37,244 nucleotides of DNA, taken from positions 1-37,244 of IMG/VR virus record IMGVR_UViG_3300034198_026098; one strand, 5' to 3'. The position numbers were made by a program, and so were the translations under genes. A model generated the notes under the pieces. The model made no database searches, was not told the DNA's origin, and saw only the letters and a list, made by a program, of their open reading frames with translations. The stretch comes from a virus. This document shows, one piece after another, positions 7,949-37,244 of this stretch (within the stretch, counting starts at the first letter, position 1; every line of letters starts with the position of its first letter).

Positions 7949-8240
7949 CTTAGCGGGGTTATTTTTCAAAACATGGTACAAAGAAATTATTATCGTATTT
8001 TTATTGAGTTACGGCCAGTATTGGCACGTGAAAGCTCTTGAATATCAAAATATTATAATTAAAATAAATGAGAACTCAGCAATAATTGAGGCCACAATTG
8101 AACAGTCAATCAAGGAAGAAGATAATAAAAAGCTAGCACAAGAGAGCGAGTTGCAAAGAGTGAGAAACGCTAAGGTTTCTGACAATTGCGAACACGCAAT
8201 GGATTGGATGAAAAGTCAGTTGCTTAATAAAAACAACTGA
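7941..8240 (+). CDS. Probable i-spanin (Rz-like)
   Basis: A 99-aa protein with one N-terminal membrane segment (EIIIVFLLSYGQYWHV, about 15-30) followed by a long charged helical periplasmic part. The end, VSDNCEHAMDWMKSQL, resembles the C-terminus seen in many Rz-like proteins. Rz proteins anchor in the inner membrane and pair with an outer-membrane lipoprotein to fuse the two membranes at the last step of lysis. The likely lipoprotein partner is not nested here as in lambda; a candidate is at 8726 on the other strand. Confidence 0.65.
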   Translation: MFDLAGLFFKTWYKEIIIVFLLSYGQYWHVKALEYQNIIIKINENSAIIEATIEQSIKEEDNKKLAQESELQRVRNAKVSDNCEHAMDWMKSQLLNKNN

Positions 8241-8256
8241 CTTTTGGTCAAATTAC

Positions 8257-8673
8257 TTAATCAATAGCAAAAACCAAATATTTATCTTTTCCTTCTTTTA
8301 TAATCTCGTGATAAGGATACTTTGAAGAAGTATCATAATTACATGATAGTGGGCCCAAGTGAGAACATAAGAATGAAAATTTTACGGATGATTTTCCATA
8401 AACCGCTGCTTTAAAGTGTCCCGGATTTGCGTCATCTCCTCTGCTTACTAATAATATATTTTTCCCGCTCACTGAATCTTCCGCATAATGAACTTGGACC
8501 ATGTCCCCAACTTCAATATCAATTTTATTTGCCAGATATACCGGCAAGCTAATTATCAATCTATTTGTTTTTCCATTATTTGTGCTGAAGAACTGATAAC
8601 GTAATTGTATATTATTTCCAGAATGTCCTTTTGAAATAGGTAAAATTTTTTTAAAGTCAAATTTAATAGCCAT
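8257..8673 (-). CDS. Hypothetical protein (138 aa)
   Basis: Not recognised. The middle (NRLIISLPVYLANKIDIEVG then DMVQVHY) has the alternating beta-strand look of an AbrB/SpoVT-like swapped-hairpin region or similar small beta barrel, which would suggest DNA binding, but this is weak. It is the last gene of the leftward early operon and converges on the spanin gene. An AGAGG site lies 8 bases before the ATG, and a 7-bp tandem repeat lies immediately before that site. Confidence 0.7.
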   Translation of the reverse strand: MAIKFDFKKILPISKGHSGNNIQLRYQFFSTNNGKTNRLIISLPVYLANKIDIEVGDMVQVHYAEDSVSGKNILLVSRGDDANPGHFKAAVYGKSSVKFSFLCSHLGPLSCNYDTSSKYPYHEIIKEGKDKYLVFAID

Positions 8674-8683
8674 TTTTGCCTCT

Positions 8684-8727
8684 TTGATTGTTGATTGTTG
8701 ATTGTTGATTGTTGATTGTTGATTGTT
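8684..8727. repeat. Heptanucleotide tandem repeat, about six copies
   Basis: The unit TTGATTG (AACAATC on the coding strand of the neighbours) is repeated about six times without change, ending in a variant at the stop codon of the lipoprotein gene. It fills the gap between that stop and the binding site of the gene at 8257. A 7-bp unit changes spacing, and frame, with each gain or loss. Confidence 0.95.
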
Positions 8728-8983
8728 AATTCTTACTCATGAAATCCCCCAGATAGTTATAGCATTCCGCGTCATGATTAACGCACATTTTATTGCTTTC
8801 GACAATCGCTTTAACTGTTTGTGAATTGCTGGCGTTTGATTTTAAATGCCAGACCGGCAAGTCAAGCGGCTTCATGTCAGGAGCAGCAGGGCACTTAGCA
8901 TATGTTGTGCAGCCGCTAATAATTACCATCACTAGAAACAGAATGCATAAAAATACAAATAAAAATATTGCTTTTTTAGTCAT
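8726..8983 (-). CDS. Lipoprotein, candidate o-spanin (Rz1-like)
   Basis: An 85-aa protein with a basic start (MTKK), one hydrophobic segment to about residue 22 and a lipobox IISGC with lipidation at C25. The mature part begins with a Pro-rich stretch (CPAAPDMKPLDLP) and ends with TVKAIVESNKMCVNHDAEC, a pattern like that in some Rz1-type lipoproteins. It faces the lysis cassette but is on the opposite strand, in the early operon, which is unusual for a spanin. Start 8983 is the ATG with GGAA upstream; a TTG one codon earlier is less likely. Another role, such as surface exclusion, is possible. Confidence 0.6.
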   Translation of the reverse strand: MTKKAIFLFVFLCILFLVMVIISGCTTYAKCPAAPDMKPLDLPVWHLKSNASNSQTVKAIVESNKMCVNHDAECYNYLGDFMSKN

Positions 8984-11882: not shown

Positions 11883-12038
11883 TTATTCCCCCAGATTTTC
11901 AAGGTGCAATTTTAGCACCAAAATGTTTAGTTCTACAGTTGGCTTGTACGCGTGATATTTTTTGTGATATCTCATTGCTAGCCACCAATAATATGCATTC
12001 TCAACGTCTCGTTTAGATTTCAAATGTGAAGTCATCAT
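11883..12038 (-). CDS. Hypothetical protein (51 aa)
   Basis: An excellent AAAGGAGCAG site precedes a double ATG (12038 and 12035). The product contains AYYWWLAMRYHKKYHAYKP, an aromatic and basic helix. Its stop is one base from the next start. Small early proteins of this kind often target host factors, but nothing here identifies a partner. Confidence 0.65.
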   Translation of the reverse strand: MMTSHLKSKRDVENAYYWWLAMRYHKKYHAYKPTVELNILVLKLHLENLGE

Positions 12039-12239: not shown

Positions 12240-12357
12240 GCTTTTTATCTAGATCTTCTGCCTCTAAATTGCCTGAAAATCTCCTGTTATAAAAACAATT
12301 ACTTATGATTTTAGGGGCGATTTTTTTAGGCGAAATGATTACGAGATAACGTAACAT

Positions 12358-12386
12358 TTGATTAGCGCTAACTATTGATATATCAT
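12358..12386 (+). promoter_or_regulatory. Rightward early promoter with operator in spacer
   Basis: -35 TTGATT (12358-12363), 17-bp spacer, -10 TATCAT (12381-12386). The palindrome TTAGCGCTAA (12362-12371) overlaps the -35 and spacer, so a bound protein would block RNA polymerase. It drives the regulator at 12414 and the replication genes. Between the two promoters (12240-12357) no gene is seen. Confidence 0.7.
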
Positions 12387-12413
12387 GTAAGATTGTCAGC
12401 CGAGGAAAAGTTT

Positions 12414-12671
12414 ATGGAAGTAACGAAAAGAGTCAGGAAAACTAAAAAACAACTAAAACAGTCATGTGATGCACTTAGAAAAGTGCTTGCGTTTATTACG
12501 ATGTCTTATATATCAAAAGATTTCGATATTTGTATTAGCAGTGTTAGTTTATGGAGAGTAAAGGGTGTGCCATCATCCAGGGCAGAACGTTTATCAGAAT
12601 TAACAAATGGTCTTGTAAGTAAATATGACTTGGCTCCAGAACTTCTGGAGTTAGAGCAAAATGAAGAGTAA
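12414..12671 (+). CDS. Cro/YdaS-like HTH regulator
   Basis: An 85-aa basic protein. Residues about 30-65 fit a helix-turn-helix of the YdaS/Cro-like type: SYISKDFDICISSVSLWRVK, then GVPSSRAERLSELTNG, and the following DLAPELL is typical of the end of this group. It is the first gene right of the divergent control region, so it is the best candidate to bind the three TAGCGCTA palindromes and set the balance between early transcription units. Start 12414 is preferred (GAGGAAAAG upstream) over a TTG at 12375 that lies within the promoter. Confidence 0.75.
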   Translation: MEVTKRVRKTKKQLKQSCDALRKVLAFITMSYISKDFDICISSVSLWRVKGVPSSRAERLSELTNGLVSKYDLAPELLELEQNEE

Positions 12672-12721: not shown

Positions 12722-13714
12722 ATGGCAATTGAAAACTCAAAGCGCGATAAAGAATTTCGCAACGGTGATATTTTTCAAGAAAAAGCAGAGCATCCTTTTT
12801 TGATCATGCATCAGCAAGGATTAAATGCAAAAATGTCGTGGAGAGCAAAGGGAATGCTAGCGTTCCTAATGAAATTGCCAAAAGATTGGATAATAAATAT
12901 GGATCATTTGGTTAAAATATCAGAAGAAGGAAGAGATGTTGTTTATAAAATAATGCATGAGCTTATAGAAAAAGGATACGTAAGCAAAATAGCCCAACGT
13001 GACAAGAGACAAAAAGGGCGTTTCGAAGTTTTTTATTATGTAGCACGAGATATTACTGTCAACCCACTTACTGAATTTCAGGAAATGGACAAGGGTATTG
13101 ATAACAAAGGATCTTGTCCATTTCCTGAAAATCCGGATCCGGATTTTCAGGATCCTGAGTTTCAGTATGCATTACAAAAGAAGATTAATACAAAAAAAGA
13201 AAATAAAAAAACAGCAGCAATTAATAAAACCCCCATTCCAAAAAATCTCGGCGCAAATAAAAATGCTGCTGTTTCTTATTTTAATGTTTTTTTAACACCC
13301 CCCGATTTGCTAATCGGAAAAGAGCTGACAGACACGCAGCAGCAGTGTGTACAAGAATGTCTTGTCAAAAATCACCAGAATTTAACTACAGAATTGTTTG
13401 AGCAAGTATGCTGCGGAATGCTTGATATAGAACACTATAGCGCCTCTGGAAAAGACTTTTTAAAAAAGTTAAATACTATTTCAAGTCAGATAACAAAGGG
13501 ACAATGGACGCCTCCAGCAAGCATTGAAGAGAAAAAAAGCAAAAAAAAACTCGACGATGAAAGCGAAAAATACAGGAAAATGAATTTATTGCAAGCAGAG
13601 ATTGAACATGCTAAGCGTATGATAAAAATGCTAGATGACCATAATGCGCGTATTCCATGGAATCAGATGATAAGCGATGCAGAAAAAAAATTATCTGAAA
13701 TAGCACGGCATTGA
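12722..13714 (+). CDS. Replication initiator-like winged-helix protein
   Basis: A 330-aa protein with an AAGGAATAAG site. Residues about 36-90 form a winged helix as in phage and plasmid replication organisers (SWRAKGMLAFLMKLPKDWII, then VVYKIMHELIEKGYVSKI). The linker is Lys/Asn-rich, and the C-terminal part is helical with a final coiled coil (LLQAEIEHAKRMIKMLDDH). Like lambda O, the gene carries a cluster of inverted repeats in the linker-coding region (13076-13152) that may be the origin it binds. No helicase or primase gene is present, so host DnaB would have to be recruited. The exact family is inferred. Confidence 0.7.
   Translation: MAIENSKRDKEFRNGDIFQEKAEHPFLIMHQQGLNAKMSWRAKGMLAFLMKLPKDWIINMDHLVKISEEGRDVVYKIMHELIEKGYVSKIAQRDKRQKGRFEVFYYVARDITVNPLTEFQEMDKGIDNKGSCPFPENPDPDFQDPEFQYALQKKINTKKENKKTAAINKTPIPKNLGANKNAAVSYFNVFLTPPDLLIGKELTDTQQQCVQECLVKNHQNLTTELFEQVCCGMLDIEHYSASGKDFLKKLNTISSQITKGQWTPPASIEEKKSKKKLDDESEKYRKMNLLQAEIEHAKRMIKMLDDHNARIPWNQMISDAEKKLSEIARH
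13076..13152. repeat. Origin-like nested inverted repeats inside the initiator gene
   Basis: Two overlapping structures. First, 18-bp perfect arms at 13076-13093 (TTTCAGGAAATGGACAAG) and 13113-13130. Second, a perfect 30-bp palindrome at 13123-13152 with half-site TCCTGAAAATCCGGA. Both are built from the octamer TTTCAGGA, which occurs at 13076, inverted at 13123 and again at 13145; a partial TTTCAG is at 13160. Such iterons within an initiator gene recall the lambda origin. Confidence 0.6.
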
Positions 13715-17987: not shown

Positions 17988-18206
17988 TTACTTATTTAAG
18001 TATTCATGATGTTCACCGTAGGTTAATCTTTGCAGCCCGTTGTGTGGAACAAATATATAGTAAGTATCGCCCTTTACATTAATCATTAAATATTGGTCTG
18101 GCAACCAATCACCCGGAGTGGGTATAGCTTTTAACACTTTTAATTGCATAAACCCTATTTTTACGATGTTTCCTATTTCCCAATTTTGCTTAGTGTTAGT
18201 TATCAT
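17988..18206 (-). CDS. Hypothetical protein (72 aa)
   Basis: A beta-rich small protein (WEIGNIVKIGFMQLKVLKAI, then DTYYIFVPHNGLQRL). Its leader CAAGGGGATAGATTATGA is the same as that of the gene at 18245, which indicates local duplication of a binding-site cassette. Function unknown. Confidence 0.7.
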   Translation of the reverse strand: MITNTKQNWEIGNIVKIGFMQLKVLKAIPTPGDWLPDQYLMINVKGDTYYIFVPHNGLQRLTYGEHHEYLNK

Positions 18207-18244
18207 AATCTATCCCCTTGTTTTGTTGATTAAATTTTGTGTTA

Positions 18245-18556
18245 TTAAAATATTGAGTAGTGGTGTACTTCCCAATTTAAGTCGCCTAAATCCTCTACTT
18301 TTTTAACGTCTTCTTCTTTTTGATAATAATATGCAGTAATTATACGTTCGCAGTCACTTTCTGTTTCGCCGGGAATTTCCATGTCTGCGCAAAATTCCAC
18401 CCATCCATTTCTTAGCAATCTGTTCGTAAAATCGCAATCAATCTCATTTAATATATTTACTGCTTCTAAGCCTGCTTGCGCTACTGCTTGATCTCGAGTT
18501 AAATCATTGTTATCTATAGTTAATTCATAGTTATCTGTAGTTAATTTATCGTTCAT
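18245..18556 (-). CDS. First gene of the leftward regulatory operon (103 aa)
   Basis: Begins 45 bases below the strong promoter at 18599. The N-terminus has a short internal repeat (LTTDNYELTIDNNDLT). The remainder is acidic and helical (VEFCADMEIPGETESDCERI). Acidic early proteins of phages sometimes mimic DNA, but nothing specific is recognised. Confidence 0.7.
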   Translation of the reverse strand: MNDKLTTDNYELTIDNNDLTRDQAVAQAGLEAVNILNEIDCDFTNRLLRNGWVEFCADMEIPGETESDCERIITAYYYQKEEDVKKVEDLGDLNWEVHHYSIF

Positions 18557-18598
18557 AATCTATCCCCTTGTGTTGCAGTCGTGATTGACTGTAAGCTC

Positions 18599-18627
18599 AG
18601 TTTAGCACGCGTAACGTGCTTTGTCAA
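18599..18627 (-). promoter_or_regulatory. Strong leftward promoter with operator in spacer
   Basis: On the - strand: perfect -35 TTGACA (18627-18622), 17-bp spacer, -10 TAAACT (18604-18599). The spacer holds an inverted repeat, AGCACG (18604-18609) and CGTGCT (18615-18620) around CGTAA, placed as in repressor-controlled phage promoters. It drives the genes from 18556 to 17431. Confidence 0.75.
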
Positions 18628-18735
18628 GCTTTTTGTTTTCCCATTTATACCTTTGTTGTTTTGACTGTTTTTTGTGATATCATAGTTTTTTGGTTTTGTA
18701 AAGGGGGAGTAACTGCGTCGTATTTTAAACTCATT

Positions 18736-18768
18736 ATTCCCCCTATATTCCCCCTATATTCCCCCAAT
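18736..18768. repeat. Three 11-bp iterons ATTCCCCCTAT
   Basis: Two perfect copies (18736-18746, 18747-18757) and a third that diverges at the end (18758-18768, ATTCCCCCAAT). The 11-bp period puts the C-runs on one face of the helix. They end at the -35 of the promoter at 18768, and an A-rich tract follows. An inverted GGGGGAGTAA is at 18704. Activator sites or plasmid-type replication iterons are both possible. Confidence 0.85.
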
Positions 18769-18796
18769 TGTTTGTTAAAAAAAAATGCGTTATAAT
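18768..18796 (+). promoter_or_regulatory. Rightward promoter with consensus -10
   Basis: -35 TTGTTT (18768-18773), 17-bp spacer containing nine A residues, -10 TATAAT (18791-18796). Start is expected near 18803. The weak -35 directly below the iterons suggests activation by a bound protein. Confidence 0.65.
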
Positions 18797-18802
18797 TCAG
18801 GC

Positions 18803-19160
18803 GGCACGATAGTTTGAGCAGACTTGGACATATCAAGGTTAACCATCTGCGTCTAAAACAATGGTGTAGTAAGAGAGGTGGGACGGGCGGTGCAAATCCG
18901 CATAGTATTGAGTTTGAAATCTCAATATAAAGCAGCTCAGCACATAGAGCGCTCTTACTTCGTAACTATTACGCCAGTACCCAACCTGGCTCGTGTCAAC
19001 TAATTGCAGAGAAGCGGCGAACCTCATCTACGTAAATCTCGCGATACATTCGTAGCGCTGTCAGTAGTCGTTGCATCTAGCGTCAGGTGCGTTCTTTGTG
19101 ATGACGTCGTTTGCATCTATCTCTTAAACAGATAGATGCAAGCTTAATATAGAGAGTACT
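18803..19160 (+). ncRNA. Candidate structured RNA or long structured leader
   Basis: No credible gene lies in this 358-nt stretch, which is less AT-rich to the eye than its flanks. Pairings seen: GCAGA/TCTGC at about 18819/18845 enclosing CTTG/CAAG; AGTAAGAG (18868-18875) with CTCTTACT (18952-18959) enclosing GCGG/CCGC, TATTGAG/CTCAATA and GCTC/GAGC in a cloverleaf-like set; CCAG/CTGG; CTACG (19028-19032) with CGTAG (19051-19055); GCATCT/AGGTGC; and a perfect 12-bp stem TTGCATCTATCT (19111-19122) with 19130-19141 just before the gene at 19161. It starts below a consensus promoter. It matches no riboswitch, tRNA, tmRNA or ribozyme that I know. Confidence 0.4.
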
Positions 19161-19655
19161 ATGAGCAACTTAGGATGGCTTCATAAAAATGTAGAGCGTG
19201 TTTTTAGAGTCGCACTCTATGCGGCATTTCCCGATTTCCCGGAATTACTTATAGAGTCTTTGCAATTTGCGCCAAATAAAAAAGGTGAGTGTGGAGACCA
19301 AATTAACATCATTAAATTGGCCAGACTAGTTGGATTGAGCAATGAGCAGTTTTGCGAGCGATTATCTGTTTTTATCGAAAGAAGTTGTGCGTTGATTGGA
19401 TTTAGATTTTCTTTGACATTTGATACTCGAGTAGGGTTGTGCTTTATAAATTACTGGCATTTGCCCGTCGATCCATGGCTTAATAATGATAATTCTAACG
19501 CTGGCATAATGACTCATATCAAAATTGCGATCGATAAAATGAAAAAAGATCGCACTGCTTTAATAAAAGACAGAGATTTTAATTTTAGCGTAATGTGTGT
19601 TGCTGAGCACCCGCAGTTTATTTATATGATTTTAGAAGACCCGGACGATCATTAA
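19161..19655 (+). CDS. Hypothetical protein (164 aa)
   Basis: First gene after the structured segment; ATAGAGAG is the binding site. A globular alpha/beta protein with a possible helix-turn-helix (IIKLARLVGLSNEQFCERLS at about 50-69). It contains FDTRVGLCFINYWHLP in the middle. The family is not recognised. If the upstream segment is a regulatory leader, this is its likely target. Confidence 0.7.
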   Translation: MSNLGWLHKNVERVFRVALYAAFPDFPELLIESLQFAPNKKGECGDQINIIKLARLVGLSNEQFCERLSVFIERSCALIGFRFSLTFDTRVGLCFINYWHLPVDPWLNNDNSNAGIMTHIKIAIDKMKKDRTALIKDRDFNFSVMCVAEHPQFIYMILEDPDDH

Positions 19656-19675: not shown

Positions 19676-19858
19676 ATGAAATCTATCTGTTCTTTTATTG
19701 GTTTTTTAGTTAGTATGATCGGTTACCATTTGCATGGCAGCATTTTGTGGTCAATTTTTGACTTTTTTTTCTGGTACGTTGTTTTAGTGAAATGGGTGGT
19801 AGATAAACAATTAACTTTAACTGTCATACAACAAACCTTTTCTTTTTTCTTTCATTAA
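19676..19858 (+). CDS. Small membrane protein (60 aa)
   Basis: AAGGA lies about 10 bases upstream. Two hydrophobic segments rich in Phe and Trp (SICSFIGFLVSMIGYHLHG and ILWSIFDFFFWYVVLVKWVV). The next gene starts at the base after its stop codon, so they are coupled. Superinfection exclusion is a common role of such proteins, but there is no direct evidence. Confidence 0.55.
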   Translation: MKSICSFIGFLVSMIGYHLHGSILWSIFDFFFWYVVLVKWVVDKQLTLTVIQQTFSFFFH

Positions 19859-21940: not shown

Positions 21941-21985
21941 ACACTATACTACACTATTGTAGTGTATGCAACACTAGTGTAGTGT
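21941..21985. repeat. ACACTA array, candidate centromere and operator, over the par promoter
   Basis: ACACTA starts at 21941, 21951 and 21971; its complement TAGTGT starts at 21960, 21975 and 21980. Starts at 41, 51, 60, 71 and 80 are about 10 bp apart, so the sites face one side of the helix. They cover a leftward promoter: -35 TTGCAT (21971-21966), 17-bp spacer, -10 TATAGT (21948-21943). This fits autoregulation, and short phased sites are typical of small ParA systems. Confidence 0.75.
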
Positions 21986-22008
21986 ATTATATACTAGCAT
22001 TATAGTTA

Positions 22009-22037
22009 TTGATTCTTATAAATAACCATGGTATTAT
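22009..22037 (+). promoter_or_regulatory. Rightward promoter for the structural operon
   Basis: -35 TTGATT (22009-22014), 17-bp spacer, -10 TATTAT (22032-22037). The -35 is the same as in the early rightward promoter at 12358. It lies about 100 bp before the scaffold gene and divergent to the par promoter. A late activator may still be needed. Confidence 0.55.
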
Positions 22038-22049
22038 AGTTTTCAGTGG

Positions 22050-22116
22050 AACGCGTAACCACACAAAAAACACGGTCAAATGCAGCACAGTCAACGCGTA
22101 AGACTTAAAACACGGT
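22050..22116 (+). repeat. Two-part direct repeats in the late leader
   Basis: AACGCGTAA occurs at 22050-22058 and 22093-22101, and AAAACACGGT at 22067-22076 and 22107-22116. Two copies of the same ordered pair thus lie in the untranslated leader before the scaffold gene, about 40 bp apart. ACGCGTAA is also in the operator region of the promoter at 18599 (18607-18614). They could be antitermination or late-regulator sites. Confidence 0.65.
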
Positions 22117-22134
22117 ACCCAGGAAGGGAACAAA

Positions 22135-23187
22135 ATGGACTTGAAAGAATTAATGGATGGTATCAAATCGGATAGCGACGCATTTATTGATCCAGAATAT
22201 GCGGAACAATTGCAAGCAGCCGGCGAAGATACTACAACCGACACTCGAAAGAGTGCGGCGGAACAAAATAACCGCATTTCTGAATCTTCAGAAAATGAGG
22301 CATCTTTTGAAACAGATTCCGCTGATGTTACAAGTGACGCATCAAATGAGCAAGATTCTAAATTATCTAAAGATGAAGACTCAACTAGCGACAAGCCAGT
22401 TGAAGACTCTGCGTCTGAAGATACTCCCGAAGCGCAAAAAGCATTAGAGGGCTACGCTGCTAAAAAAATCGGCAAGCTGACGAAAAAAGTACATGATGCT
22501 AATGATGAGCTGAGAGAGTTAAGACAAGAGCTAGAACGTACACGCTTACAACAGAGTCAAATTGTAGACATGCCGCAAATGTCTGTGCCCATGGTCAATG
22601 ATTTCGAATTTACTGACCCGCAATCACAGCAAAAAGTACATATGCCGCAAGCCCGTGATTTTAATGGCGATGCACCTGCGTATATGGAAGCGCGCACACA
22701 GTTTGAATTTGCTAAAAAGCAAGCGTTGCAATTCTGGCAGCAAGCGCAGAAAGACTATTTTGAAAATGAAAATTTAAAATCCACTTATCAACAAAAGCTT
22801 GACGCTGGTAAAAAACAGTACAAAGATTTTGAGGAAGTGATTTTAGGGGGAAATTTAGCCGTGCTAGAACATGCACAGCCTAAGTTGGTTCCCGCGATTC
22901 AAAAGAGCCCCTACGCTGAACATCTTGTTTATCATCTTGCTAAAAACCCAGAGTTAAGAGCAGATTTGGCAAAACAATCGCCGGATGACATGCTTAAAAC
23001 CATCGGGAAAATGGAAGGAATTATAGAAATGGGCATGAAGCCAAACGTTGTCAGTAAAGCTCCCCCTCCCATTTCAACAAAACCTTCATCAGGCACTGGT
23101 ACCATTAAATCCGTTTCAAAAGATGCTTCAAAGTCTCAAGATGAAGTAAATGCATCGATACGTGAACGGATGCGACAAGGTAGATAG
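22135..23187 (+). CDS. Scaffolding protein, P22 gp8-like
   Basis: A 350-aa protein directly before the coat gene. The first 105 residues are acidic and Ser/Asp/Glu-rich; about 113-145 is a coiled coil (KKIGKLTKKVHDANDELREL); a long helical region follows; and the end is basic (SIRERMRQGR), as in P22 scaffold, where the basic C-terminus binds coat. P22 gp8 is 303 aa. AGGAAGGGA precedes the ATG. It would direct procapsid assembly and leave before packaging. Assigned by position and composition, since scaffolds diverge quickly. Confidence 0.78.
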   Translation: MDLKELMDGIKSDSDAFIDPEYAEQLQAAGEDTTTDTRKSAAEQNNRISESSENEASFETDSADVTSDASNEQDSKLSKDEDSTSDKPVEDSASEDTPEAQKALEGYAAKKIGKLTKKVHDANDELRELRQELERTRLQQSQIVDMPQMSVPMVNDFEFTDPQSQQKVHMPQARDFNGDAPAYMEARTQFEFAKKQALQFWQQAQKDYFENENLKSTYQQKLDAGKKQYKDFEEVILGGNLAVLEHAQPKLVPAIQKSPYAEHLVYHLAKNPELRADLAKQSPDDMLKTIGKMEGIIEMGMKPNVVSKAPPPISTKPSSGTGTIKSVSKDASKSQDEVNASIRERMRQGR

Positions 23188-23232: not shown

Positions 23233-24462
23233 ATGGCTACAAATAGACTTTTAGTTGTCGACATGATCGGCAAAAATATATTAGCTCGATTGATTAACTC
23301 AACTGCGATGACCCACACAGCGAATCGCGATTATGAAGATCAATTCACCCCTGGTAAAGTTTATCAAATTGGTTCTACAGTTAGAATTCGCAAACCAACT
23401 TACTTCACCGTAGTTAAGGGTGCGGCGCTTTCACTTCAGGCTGTAATCGAAAATCAAACTTACTTAACTATTACTGAACAGTCCCAAGTTGCAGTGGCGT
23501 TTACTTCTACTGAAGAACAATTGTTTTTGGAAGACGAATACTCAAACGTCTATGAAGGCGCAGCTCAAGTATTAGCTAACGATCTAGATCTTAATCTAGC
23601 TCAAACAGCTGGCACTACATTTTATCGCACCGTTGGTACAGCCGGAGCTGGTATCAGTAGCTTTGCAGTTCCCAATGCTGCGAGAACAATGCAGGTCAAA
23701 TATGGCGTTGTTAGCTCTAAGTTTATGTGCTTTCAGCCGGATGGGATTGCGGTTTTAAGAAATACCCTACAACCTACGTTCAATGAAGAATTAAGCAAAA
23801 GTATTTCACAGCATGCAACGATCGGCATGATTGCTGCGCATGAAGCATTTGAGGATCAAAATTTACCAGTATTCACTACAGGTACTTTCCCTGGCACCCC
23901 AATTGTTGCCGGTGCTGGTCAATCAGGTTCTGCCATTAATCTATCTGGATTTACCGCGTCACAAGTAGGCGTTTTAAATCCGGGCGATATTATTTCGTTT
24001 GCAGGTGTTTATGGGGTTAACCCAGTAAATCGTCAACAAGTCGGCTTAGGTGCTGGCAATTTAGCTCAATTCACTGTTTTAACTCAAGTAAATTCTGATG
24101 CTACAGGTCTTGCTACAGTAACCATCTCACCTGAAATGGTTTTGACGGGCCCGTATCAGAACGTTACTGTTTCGCCAGCTGCAAGTGCTGCGGTTACTTG
24201 TTATGGTGTTACCGTTCCTGGCACCCCTGCGCAATGGGTTAAAAATTTCGCGTACTCAAGAGATGCTTTGAGCTTAGCTTGCGTTCCTGGGCCGATATCG
24301 TTGGGTGCCAAATATTCTAAACTTTTTTCTGACACCAAATCTGGTTTGTCTGTCAGGGCTAATATTGTTTATAATATTCAAACAGATCAAGACATTATCC
24401 GTTTTGATATGTTCTATGGTACGCAAGGGTTTGGATCTTACGGCACCATCATGGCAAGTTAA
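23233..24462 (+). CDS. Major capsid (coat) protein, P22 gp5-like
   Basis: A 409-aa protein (P22 gp5 has 430). The start MATNRLLVVDMIGKNILARL followed by AMTHTANRDYEDQFTPGKVY and GSTVRIRKP matches the N-terminal arm and E-loop region seen in P22-type coats. About residues 225-330 are beta-rich with many Gly and Val (GFTASQVGVLNPGDIISFAG), where the inserted domain of this family lies. It has the HK97 fold by family and forms the icosahedral shell. It follows the scaffold gene as in P22. Confidence 0.92.
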   Translation: MATNRLLVVDMIGKNILARLINSTAMTHTANRDYEDQFTPGKVYQIGSTVRIRKPTYFTVVKGAALSLQAVIENQTYLTITEQSQVAVAFTSTEEQLFLEDEYSNVYEGAAQVLANDLDLNLAQTAGTTFYRTVGTAGAGISSFAVPNAARTMQVKYGVVSSKFMCFQPDGIAVLRNTLQPTFNEELSKSISQHATIGMIAAHEAFEDQNLPVFTTGTFPGTPIVAGAGQSGSAINLSGFTASQVGVLNPGDIISFAGVYGVNPVNRQQVGLGAGNLAQFTVLTQVNSDATGLATVTISPEMVLTGPYQNVTVSPAASAAVTCYGVTVPGTPAQWVKNFAYSRDALSLACVPGPISLGAKYSKLFSDTKSGLSVRANIVYNIQTDQDIIRFDMFYGTQGFGSYGTIMAS

Positions 24463-24470
24463 GCCATTTT

Positions 24471-24540
24471 GTTAAACGTGTCGATTTTTTAGACATTTTT
24501 CGACACGTTTAACTCATATGTCGATTTTTTAGACATTTTT
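24471..24540 (+). terminator. 14-bp hairpin plus a duplicated 22-bp block after the coat gene
   Basis: GTTAAACGTGTCGA (24471-24484) pairs with TCGACACGTTTAAC (24500-24513). A 22-bp block starting TGTCGATTTTTTAGACA occurs at 24479-24500 and again, identical, at 24519-24540. The hairpin probably lowers transcription past the coat gene or protects the coat mRNA; the second block looks like a partial duplication of the hairpin loop. Confidence 0.7.
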
Positions 24541-36579: not shown

Positions 36580-37244
36580 ATGGCAAATGTAAGATTGTGG
36601 CCAACTATAATATCGCCAGCCGTAACTGATGCAGCATCTTTGACAGCTCTTGATGTTTCTGGATTTTCGGACGGCGTAAGTTGTAATGTTATTGGACTTG
36701 GAAATTTTTACTATGATTCCGGCTCTTCTGCTATCGCTAATGATGTAACCGTCATCTCTCCCTCTGCTGGCCCTGGACGATGGCTCGTTTCAAGACCTAC
36801 GGTATCAGGATCAGATAACATTTTGGGAAGAGCGACAGACGGCCCAGGCCCATGTGAAGAAATCAGTTGTACTGCTGTAGGCAGATCTTTAATAGCTACC
36901 GCAACAGCAACAGCCGCAAGATTAGTGCTATCTTGTCCTAATAACGTGGGAGATACGGCTAGCGGAACGTGGCCGATCAGCATCACAGGTAACGCCGGCA
37001 CAATTCCCAATTTAATTGGCGATGTTACGTCTGTAGGAACAGCCACAACGATTTCTGCACACGCAACAACATTTGCAAAAATGCAACAAGTCCCAACCGT
37101 AACTTTGCTTGGCAATTCGACGGGCGGAACAGCTGATATTCAATCCGTTACTCTTGGAACCAATCTTTCATTTTCTGGCACAACTTTAAATGCAGCAGGT
37201 GGCGGTCTATCTCCAATTTCTGCGTTAAGTATATTAGCAAATCC
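36580..37244 (+). CDS. Tail-fibre-like protein, N-terminal part (continues at 1-526)
   Basis: AAAAAGGA precedes the ATG. The array module occupies about 8-75 (SLTALDVSGFSDGVSCNVIG, then GNFYYDS, then GRWLVSRP) and is closest to that of the gene at 670. A GTWPISITGNAG segment also has a counterpart there (GTWPINITGYCA). The frame crosses the sequence end into base 2 and stops at 526, giving 384 aa in total. A receptor-binding or fibre subunit by family look; specificity unknown. Confidence 0.85.
   Translation, partial: MANVRLWPTIISPAVTDAASLTALDVSGFSDGVSCNVIGLGNFYYDSGSSAIANDVTVISPSAGPGRWLVSRPTVSGSDNILGRATDGPGPCEEISCTAVGRSLIATATATAARLVLSCPNNVGDTASGTWPISITGNAGTIPNLIGDVTSVGTATTISAHATTFAKMQQVPTVTLLGNSTGGTADIQSVTLGTNLSFSGTTLNAAGGGLSPISALSILAN
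37209..37244. repeat. Terminal direct repeat (circle overlap), copy 2
   Basis: Identical to bases 1-36. Remove one copy to obtain the circular sequence. Confidence 0.9.

Follow-up and report, generated by a model that had tools for sequence, protein, structure and literature searches.

A strand-specifically folded non-coding segment in a ParA-bearing phage, a candidate two-domain leader of a rightward early operon

C4 antisense RNAs (RF01695) belong to phage-plasmids of the P1, P7 and N15 type and include stretches of complementarity to a downstream target gene at its translation start. Riboswitches borne by phages are documented but rare, with the glutamine riboswitch of phage Melnitz and the manA and wcaG motifs of cyanophages as examples (PMC9004378, PMC2864571). 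A further type of phage leader element is represented by the put RNAs of HK022, which comprise about 70 nt and two stem-loops, putL lying just downstream of PL (PMC9378689). The segment analysed here occupies positions 18803-19160 of a virus record that is 37,244 bases long and that we refer to, as a whole, as the window. Like the phage-borne riboswitch leaders, it would place a structured plus-strand RNA before a phage gene, including a domain able to bury the start codon; unlike them, it matches no riboswitch or cis-element of Rfam and was found as a single occurrence.

The first 36 bases of the window are identical to the last 36 (1-36 and 37209-37244), as expected of a complete genome that is circular or circularly permuted, and some gene may consequently span the join. 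At 23-39% identity, its terminase and portal proteins are similar to those of BcepC6B, P22-like and other short-tailed phages, and it encodes a rep/DnaD-like gene (12722-13714) as well as a ParA gene; we refer to it as a ParA-bearing podophage. The 604-bp gap that holds the segment is flanked by leftward genes, which end at 18556, and by four small unknown rightward genes, which start at 19161, 19676, 19859 and 20078. The first of these (19161-19655, plus strand, 164 aa) belongs to no known family and has its start codon within the predicted leader fold. Downstream of the leader the operon extends for about 1.2 kb before it meets convergent genes, and two HTH repressor-like genes adjoin the segment. 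A single-sequence AlphaFold model of the gene-19161 protein, made with no alignment, reached a mean pLDDT of 55 and gave no fold match at E <= 0.001, and searching IMG/VR with this protein and with ParA returned no match. Two minor features of the leftward genes were also seen: the start regions of two neighbours share a 23-nt stretch (18203-18225 and 18553-18575, 96% identical) that looks as if a ribosome-binding region had been duplicated, and seven tandem copies of TTGATTG lie between leftward genes at 8684-8731, ahead of the gene whose start is at 8673.

The first-pass annotation had described the segment as devoid of a credible gene and higher in GC than its surroundings, and both descriptions hold. 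Codon scores across 18803-19160 are negative in all six frames (-0.05 to -0.30 bits per codon), compared with mostly +0.14 to +0.28 for the neighbouring genes, two tiny neighbours being near zero. A 62-aa open reading frame on the minus strand scores -0.09 with a GC3 of 0.52 and has no PHROG; family searches with the only longer open reading frames of the segment were equally empty. A coding gene on either strand was rejected on the codon scores and the PHROG search. The GC content is 0.450, as against 0.329 for the other intergenic DNA and 0.383 for coding DNA, a value attained by only 5% of all 358-nt windows.

Comparison with shuffled controls, one of the checks proposed for the segment at first reading, showed that the plus strand folds better than chance. 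Over the full 358 nt, the plus strand gives a z-score of -2.98 with none of 100 shuffles as good, whereas the minus strand gives -1.34 with nine shuffles as good. The signal is strongest in a core at 18860-18979, where a 120-nt scan yields z -4.69 on the plus strand (0/600 shuffles) and -2.42 on the minus strand; this stretch was picked among about 60 local 120-nt windows, for which 0/600 leaves a margin. We conclude from these computations that 18803-19160 is a real, strand-specific, structured non-coding segment whose folding exceeds chance. That an RNA is made and folds, as had been proposed, gains support on its second half from the strand-specific folding, the GC content, the non-coding character and two T-loop hairpins described below, while the transcript itself is inferred. 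In a scan of the genome, the strongest windows are hairpins at intergenic gene ends (8161-8280, 24421-24540 and 2221-2340) and inverted repeats in the rep-like gene. The latter, at 13056-13152 and 13189-13294, fold well on both strands and include a 15-bp perfect palindrome (13123-13152); they could mark an origin located within rep, in the manner of lambda O.

Fold and pair probabilities delineate a first domain at 18803-18997 on the plus strand, which taken alone has a z-score of -2.3 to -2.6. It is closed by a 7-bp stem, GGCACGA (18803-18809) with UCGUGUC (18991-18997), whose pairing probability is 0.85-0.99 in a 201-nt fold and drops to 0.36-0.54 as more coding sequence is included. Within it are predicted a first hairpin (GCAGA 18818-18822 with UCUGC 18846-18850), a weaker one at 18973-18990 (GCCAG 18973-18977 with CUGGC 18986-18990) and, between them, a four-way junction at 18868-18961 that lies within the strongly folding core. 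An 8-bp closing stem over three inner stems had been noted here, AGUAAGAG at 18868-18875 with CUCUUACU at 18952-18959; it is present and does close three hairpins, but the minimum-energy fold takes an overlapping stem, GAGGUGGG at 18875-18882 with CUUACUUC at 18954-18961, which is better by 3 kcal/mol (-60.8 versus -57.8 kcal/mol). The three hairpins are predicted with high pair probabilities: the first (18887-18901, 0.94) has the stem GCGG/CCGC around the loop UGCAAAU, the second (18905-18928, 0.92-1.0) pairs the eight bases of GUAUUGAG with CUCAAUAU around UUUGAAAU, and the third (18935-18950, 0.97) has GCUC/GAGC around AGCACAUA. Both UGCAAAU and UUUGAAAU match the T-loop consensus U[UG]NRA with a G-C closing pair. 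One such hairpin arose in 0.5% of 400 shuffles and two in 0/400, figures that are optimistic, since the sequence had been inspected before this pattern was settled on.

T-loops of this kind serve stable tertiary folds, and their presence twice in domain 1 is compatible with a stand-alone RNA of about 200 nt (18803-18997) that would be released by processing and act in trans on RNA or protein of the phage or its host, leaving the remainder as an ordinary leader. The domain is a closed unit, its ends are paired through the 7-bp terminal stem and it starts at the expected +1. We nevertheless judge such a trans-acting RNA unlikely: 18997 is followed by neither a terminator nor a U tract, so that processing must be assumed, and a search for antisense targets gave nothing significant, complementarities elsewhere in the genome reaching at most 11 nt and being about as numerous as chance would give.

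The segment belongs, as judged by covariance and tRNA searches, to no known RNA family among those testable. The Rfam 15 covariance models produced nothing in the window at gathering score and, in the segment at E <= 10, only chance hits (E 2.8 to 6.8), and ARAGORN found no tRNA or tmRNA in the window, despite the T-loop-like hairpin. These results bear out the statement that the segment shows no riboswitch, tRNA, tmRNA or ribozyme signature. They make it new, as it had been called, only insofar as it has no match among known RNAs; because there is one sequence only, it cannot be called a new class. The first hairpin of the junction carries GGUGCAAAUCC, which we take to be a T-loop resembling L4 of the cobalamin riboswitches, and this prompted a closer comparison with that family. 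A four-way junction is common to both, but the B12-box hallmark was not seen in the segment, the downstream gene is not evidently B12-related and no covariance match to RF00174 or its variants appears at E <= 10, so the cobalamin riboswitch was rejected. The C4 antisense RNA is similar in being a leader-encoded RNA of a phage with partition genes. It differs in that the segment has no covariance match to RF01695 and in that the downstream genes show no relationship to the P1-type operon. One 11-nt complement of AACAGATAGAT falls where the next gene begins (19681-19691), such a count being expected by chance genome-wide. We consider it quite improbable that domain 1 represents an unrecognised ligand- or protein-sensing RNA class in which a junction braced by two T-loop hairpins is coupled to a start-codon-burying platform and times the expression of a phage accessory operon.

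The RNA would begin just below a candidate rightward promoter at 18768-18796 (plus strand), composed of TTGTTT (3/6), a 17-bp spacer and TATAAT (6/6) at 18791-18796. The perfect TATAAT that the first reading noted is indeed there, but on its own it is weak evidence, since the -35 matches at three positions, the plus strand of the genome has 25 TATAAT and promoter-like sites in the region are no commoner than in shuffles. This site falls below the promoter-scan threshold and is the only candidate plus-strand promoter between 18331 and gene 19161. Between 18803 and 19161 the plus strand has a single terminator-like site (19072-19091, 7 bp, U-poor), no more than shuffles give. A structured RNA that begins at an early promoter recalls HK022 putL, and processive antitermination, put-like or of another kind, might be envisaged for a leader that acts on RNA polymerase from just below the early promoter. 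The segment, however, forms a four-way junction in about 195 nt and is far larger than the put RNAs with their two stem-loops, and there is little to antiterminate because the downstream operon is so short. Antitermination is therefore a very improbable function.

Directly upstream of the -35 lie three 11-bp direct repeats, TATTCCCCCTA in 2.8 copies at 18735-18765 (plus strand), spaced one helical turn apart and by their position likely to be a protein-binding site for the rightward promoter; one more TATTCCCCC occurs at 11884. A strong divergent leftward promoter (18599-18627, minus strand) reads TTGACA-17-TAAACT with a TG extension and is overlapped by the palindrome AGCACGCGTAACGTGCT (18604-18620), likely a repressor operator. 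Furthermore, TTGCATCTA is present in three copies (two direct, one inverted) within 71 bp, at 19071-19079 and in the 12-bp hairpin described below, and nowhere else in the genome. Together with the adjacent HTH repressor-like genes, these repeats and palindromes could mean that the locus is a control region at the level of DNA, where repressors or partition proteins bind a GC-rich spacer and the RNA fold is incidental. We regard this as rather unlikely, as the strongest fold is strand-specific and contains G-U pairs that DNA palindromes need not have, and repeats and palindromes leave the T-loop hairpins and the GC enrichment unexplained.

The second domain (18999-19164, plus strand) is a candidate expression platform, in which two predicted pairings are mutually exclusive. 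In one, CUACG (19028-19032) pairs with CGUAG (19051-19055); in the other, UCGUAG (19050-19055) pairs with CUAUGA (19159-19164) and, extended by GCU (19057-19059) with AGU (19155-19157), forms a helix spanning 19050-19164 that takes in the start codon of gene 19161. Pairing of the AUG holds at every 3' end tried, with a probability of 0.64-0.99, and when the leader was shuffled and the gene start kept, the AUG was equally buried in 2% of shuffles. As five of the 53 other gene starts of the phage are predicted to be buried at least as deeply, burial by itself is not unusual and the test is supportive rather than decisive. The competing CUACG/CGUAG fold, at -51.8 kcal/mol, lies 4.1 kcal/mol above the minimum of -55.9 kcal/mol. 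The same domain contains a predicted 9-bp stem (19067-19075 with 19097-19105) and a perfect 12-bp hairpin at 19111-19141, UUGCAUCUAUCU (19111-19122) with AGAUAGAUGCAA (19130-19141), which matches exactly the 12-bp stem reported ahead of the next gene, has no U tract and lies some 20 nt ahead of the AUG of gene 19161.

Our tentative reading, held at somewhat less than even confidence, is that the rightward early operon has 18803-19160 as its 5' leader, built of two domains and containing a start-codon-burying switch. Among the three roles offered by the first-pass annotation, a trans-acting RNA, a leader controlling the gene at 19161 and a plasmid-type copy-control RNA, the leader suits best. 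Between 18803 and 19161 there is neither a convincing terminator nor a further candidate plus-strand promoter, which makes a continuous leader the simplest reading, and the start codon is predicted to be paired; the mechanism goes beyond this and is conjectural. Transcription would begin near 18803, from the promoter preceded by the three 11-bp repeats, and the leader RNA would fold into a compact domain 1 with its 7-bp closing stem, four-way junction and two T-loop hairpins. In domain 2, UCGUAG may then pair over the start of gene 19161 and hold translation low, and the start codon would be freed when the same strand pairs with CUACG instead. Candidate triggers for such a switch are a small molecule, a phage or host protein, temperature or a trans RNA. 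The transcription start, a single RNA running across both domains and the action of the two pairings as a switch are all inferred. The divergent control region, with its operator-like palindrome and repeats, also favours the leader, and against it we count the single sequence, the poor -35, the weakening of the closing stem in longer folds and the possibility that the 12-bp palindrome is a DNA operator.

The copy-control proposal fared worst. A plasmid-type antisense copy-control or replication-origin RNA would be in keeping with the ParA of the phage and the repeats beside the segment, but the replication gene (12722-13714) is 6 kb off, a countertranscript arrangement over the rep mRNA leader was not found, the genome contains no DnaA box, blastn gave no plasmid match and the likely partition repeats are elsewhere (21945-21984). 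We hold this role to be extremely improbable.

If the leader is real, it would extend the short list of cis-regulatory RNAs carried by phages by a complex regulatory example that matches nothing in Rfam, and it would offer a direct handle on the timing of accessory-gene switch-on in a partition-bearing podophage. Its distribution was examined at several levels. Comparing the segment by blastn with phage and plasmid collections gave chance matches or none, exact core patterns were absent from IMG/VR and GTDB contigs, and blastn as well as a covariance model of the junction detected no RNA copy across up to 38 related records, which had been gathered through capsid and terminase searches. This absence is weak evidence, because many of the records are fragments and a single-sequence model finds only near copies; the collections may also omit records very close to the window. 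The nearest well-covered relative (G001; terminase 68%, capsid protein 61%) has neither ParA nor the segment; the DNA between its own divergent genes is rich in A and T and shows no structure (z 0.69 and -0.51). The segment's absence there suggests that it travels with an exchangeable accessory block. A second relative (L009), a 4.2-kb fragment with the ParA start, ends before the position of interest.

Several side observations emerged from these comparisons. The stretch from the HTH gene to SSB appears as a hotspot for accessory modules, with several pentapeptide-repeat-like open reading frames in the nearest relative (L008 12975-15977, of G001) where the window has the RNA segment and ParA along with other small genes. 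L009 carries tRNA-Asn and tRNA-Thr genes between its ParA operon and capsid genes (822-973), and the window has none. Repeated palindromes upstream of the ParA operon of the window (21941-21986, ACTACACTATTGTAGTG and CAACACTAGTGTAGTG) are similar to repeats upstream of ParA in L009 (about 700-755, CAACACTATTGTTGTATA) and likely represent a partition site or operator. Finally, a non-coding element, AAAACACGGTCAAATG..G.ACAGTCAACG....GACTT.AAACACGG, precedes the scaffold and capsid genes; blastn did not find it in the phage collection, and it has no convincing RNA fold. It occurs at 22025-22135 of the window, at 12323-12440 (minus strand) of L008 and at 1570-1690 of L009, and is possibly a late promoter, an operator or a packaging site. 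It is nearly identical in the three phages, their capsid proteins being only about 61% identical, and so the kin of this phage do have non-coding elements in common where these have been retained.
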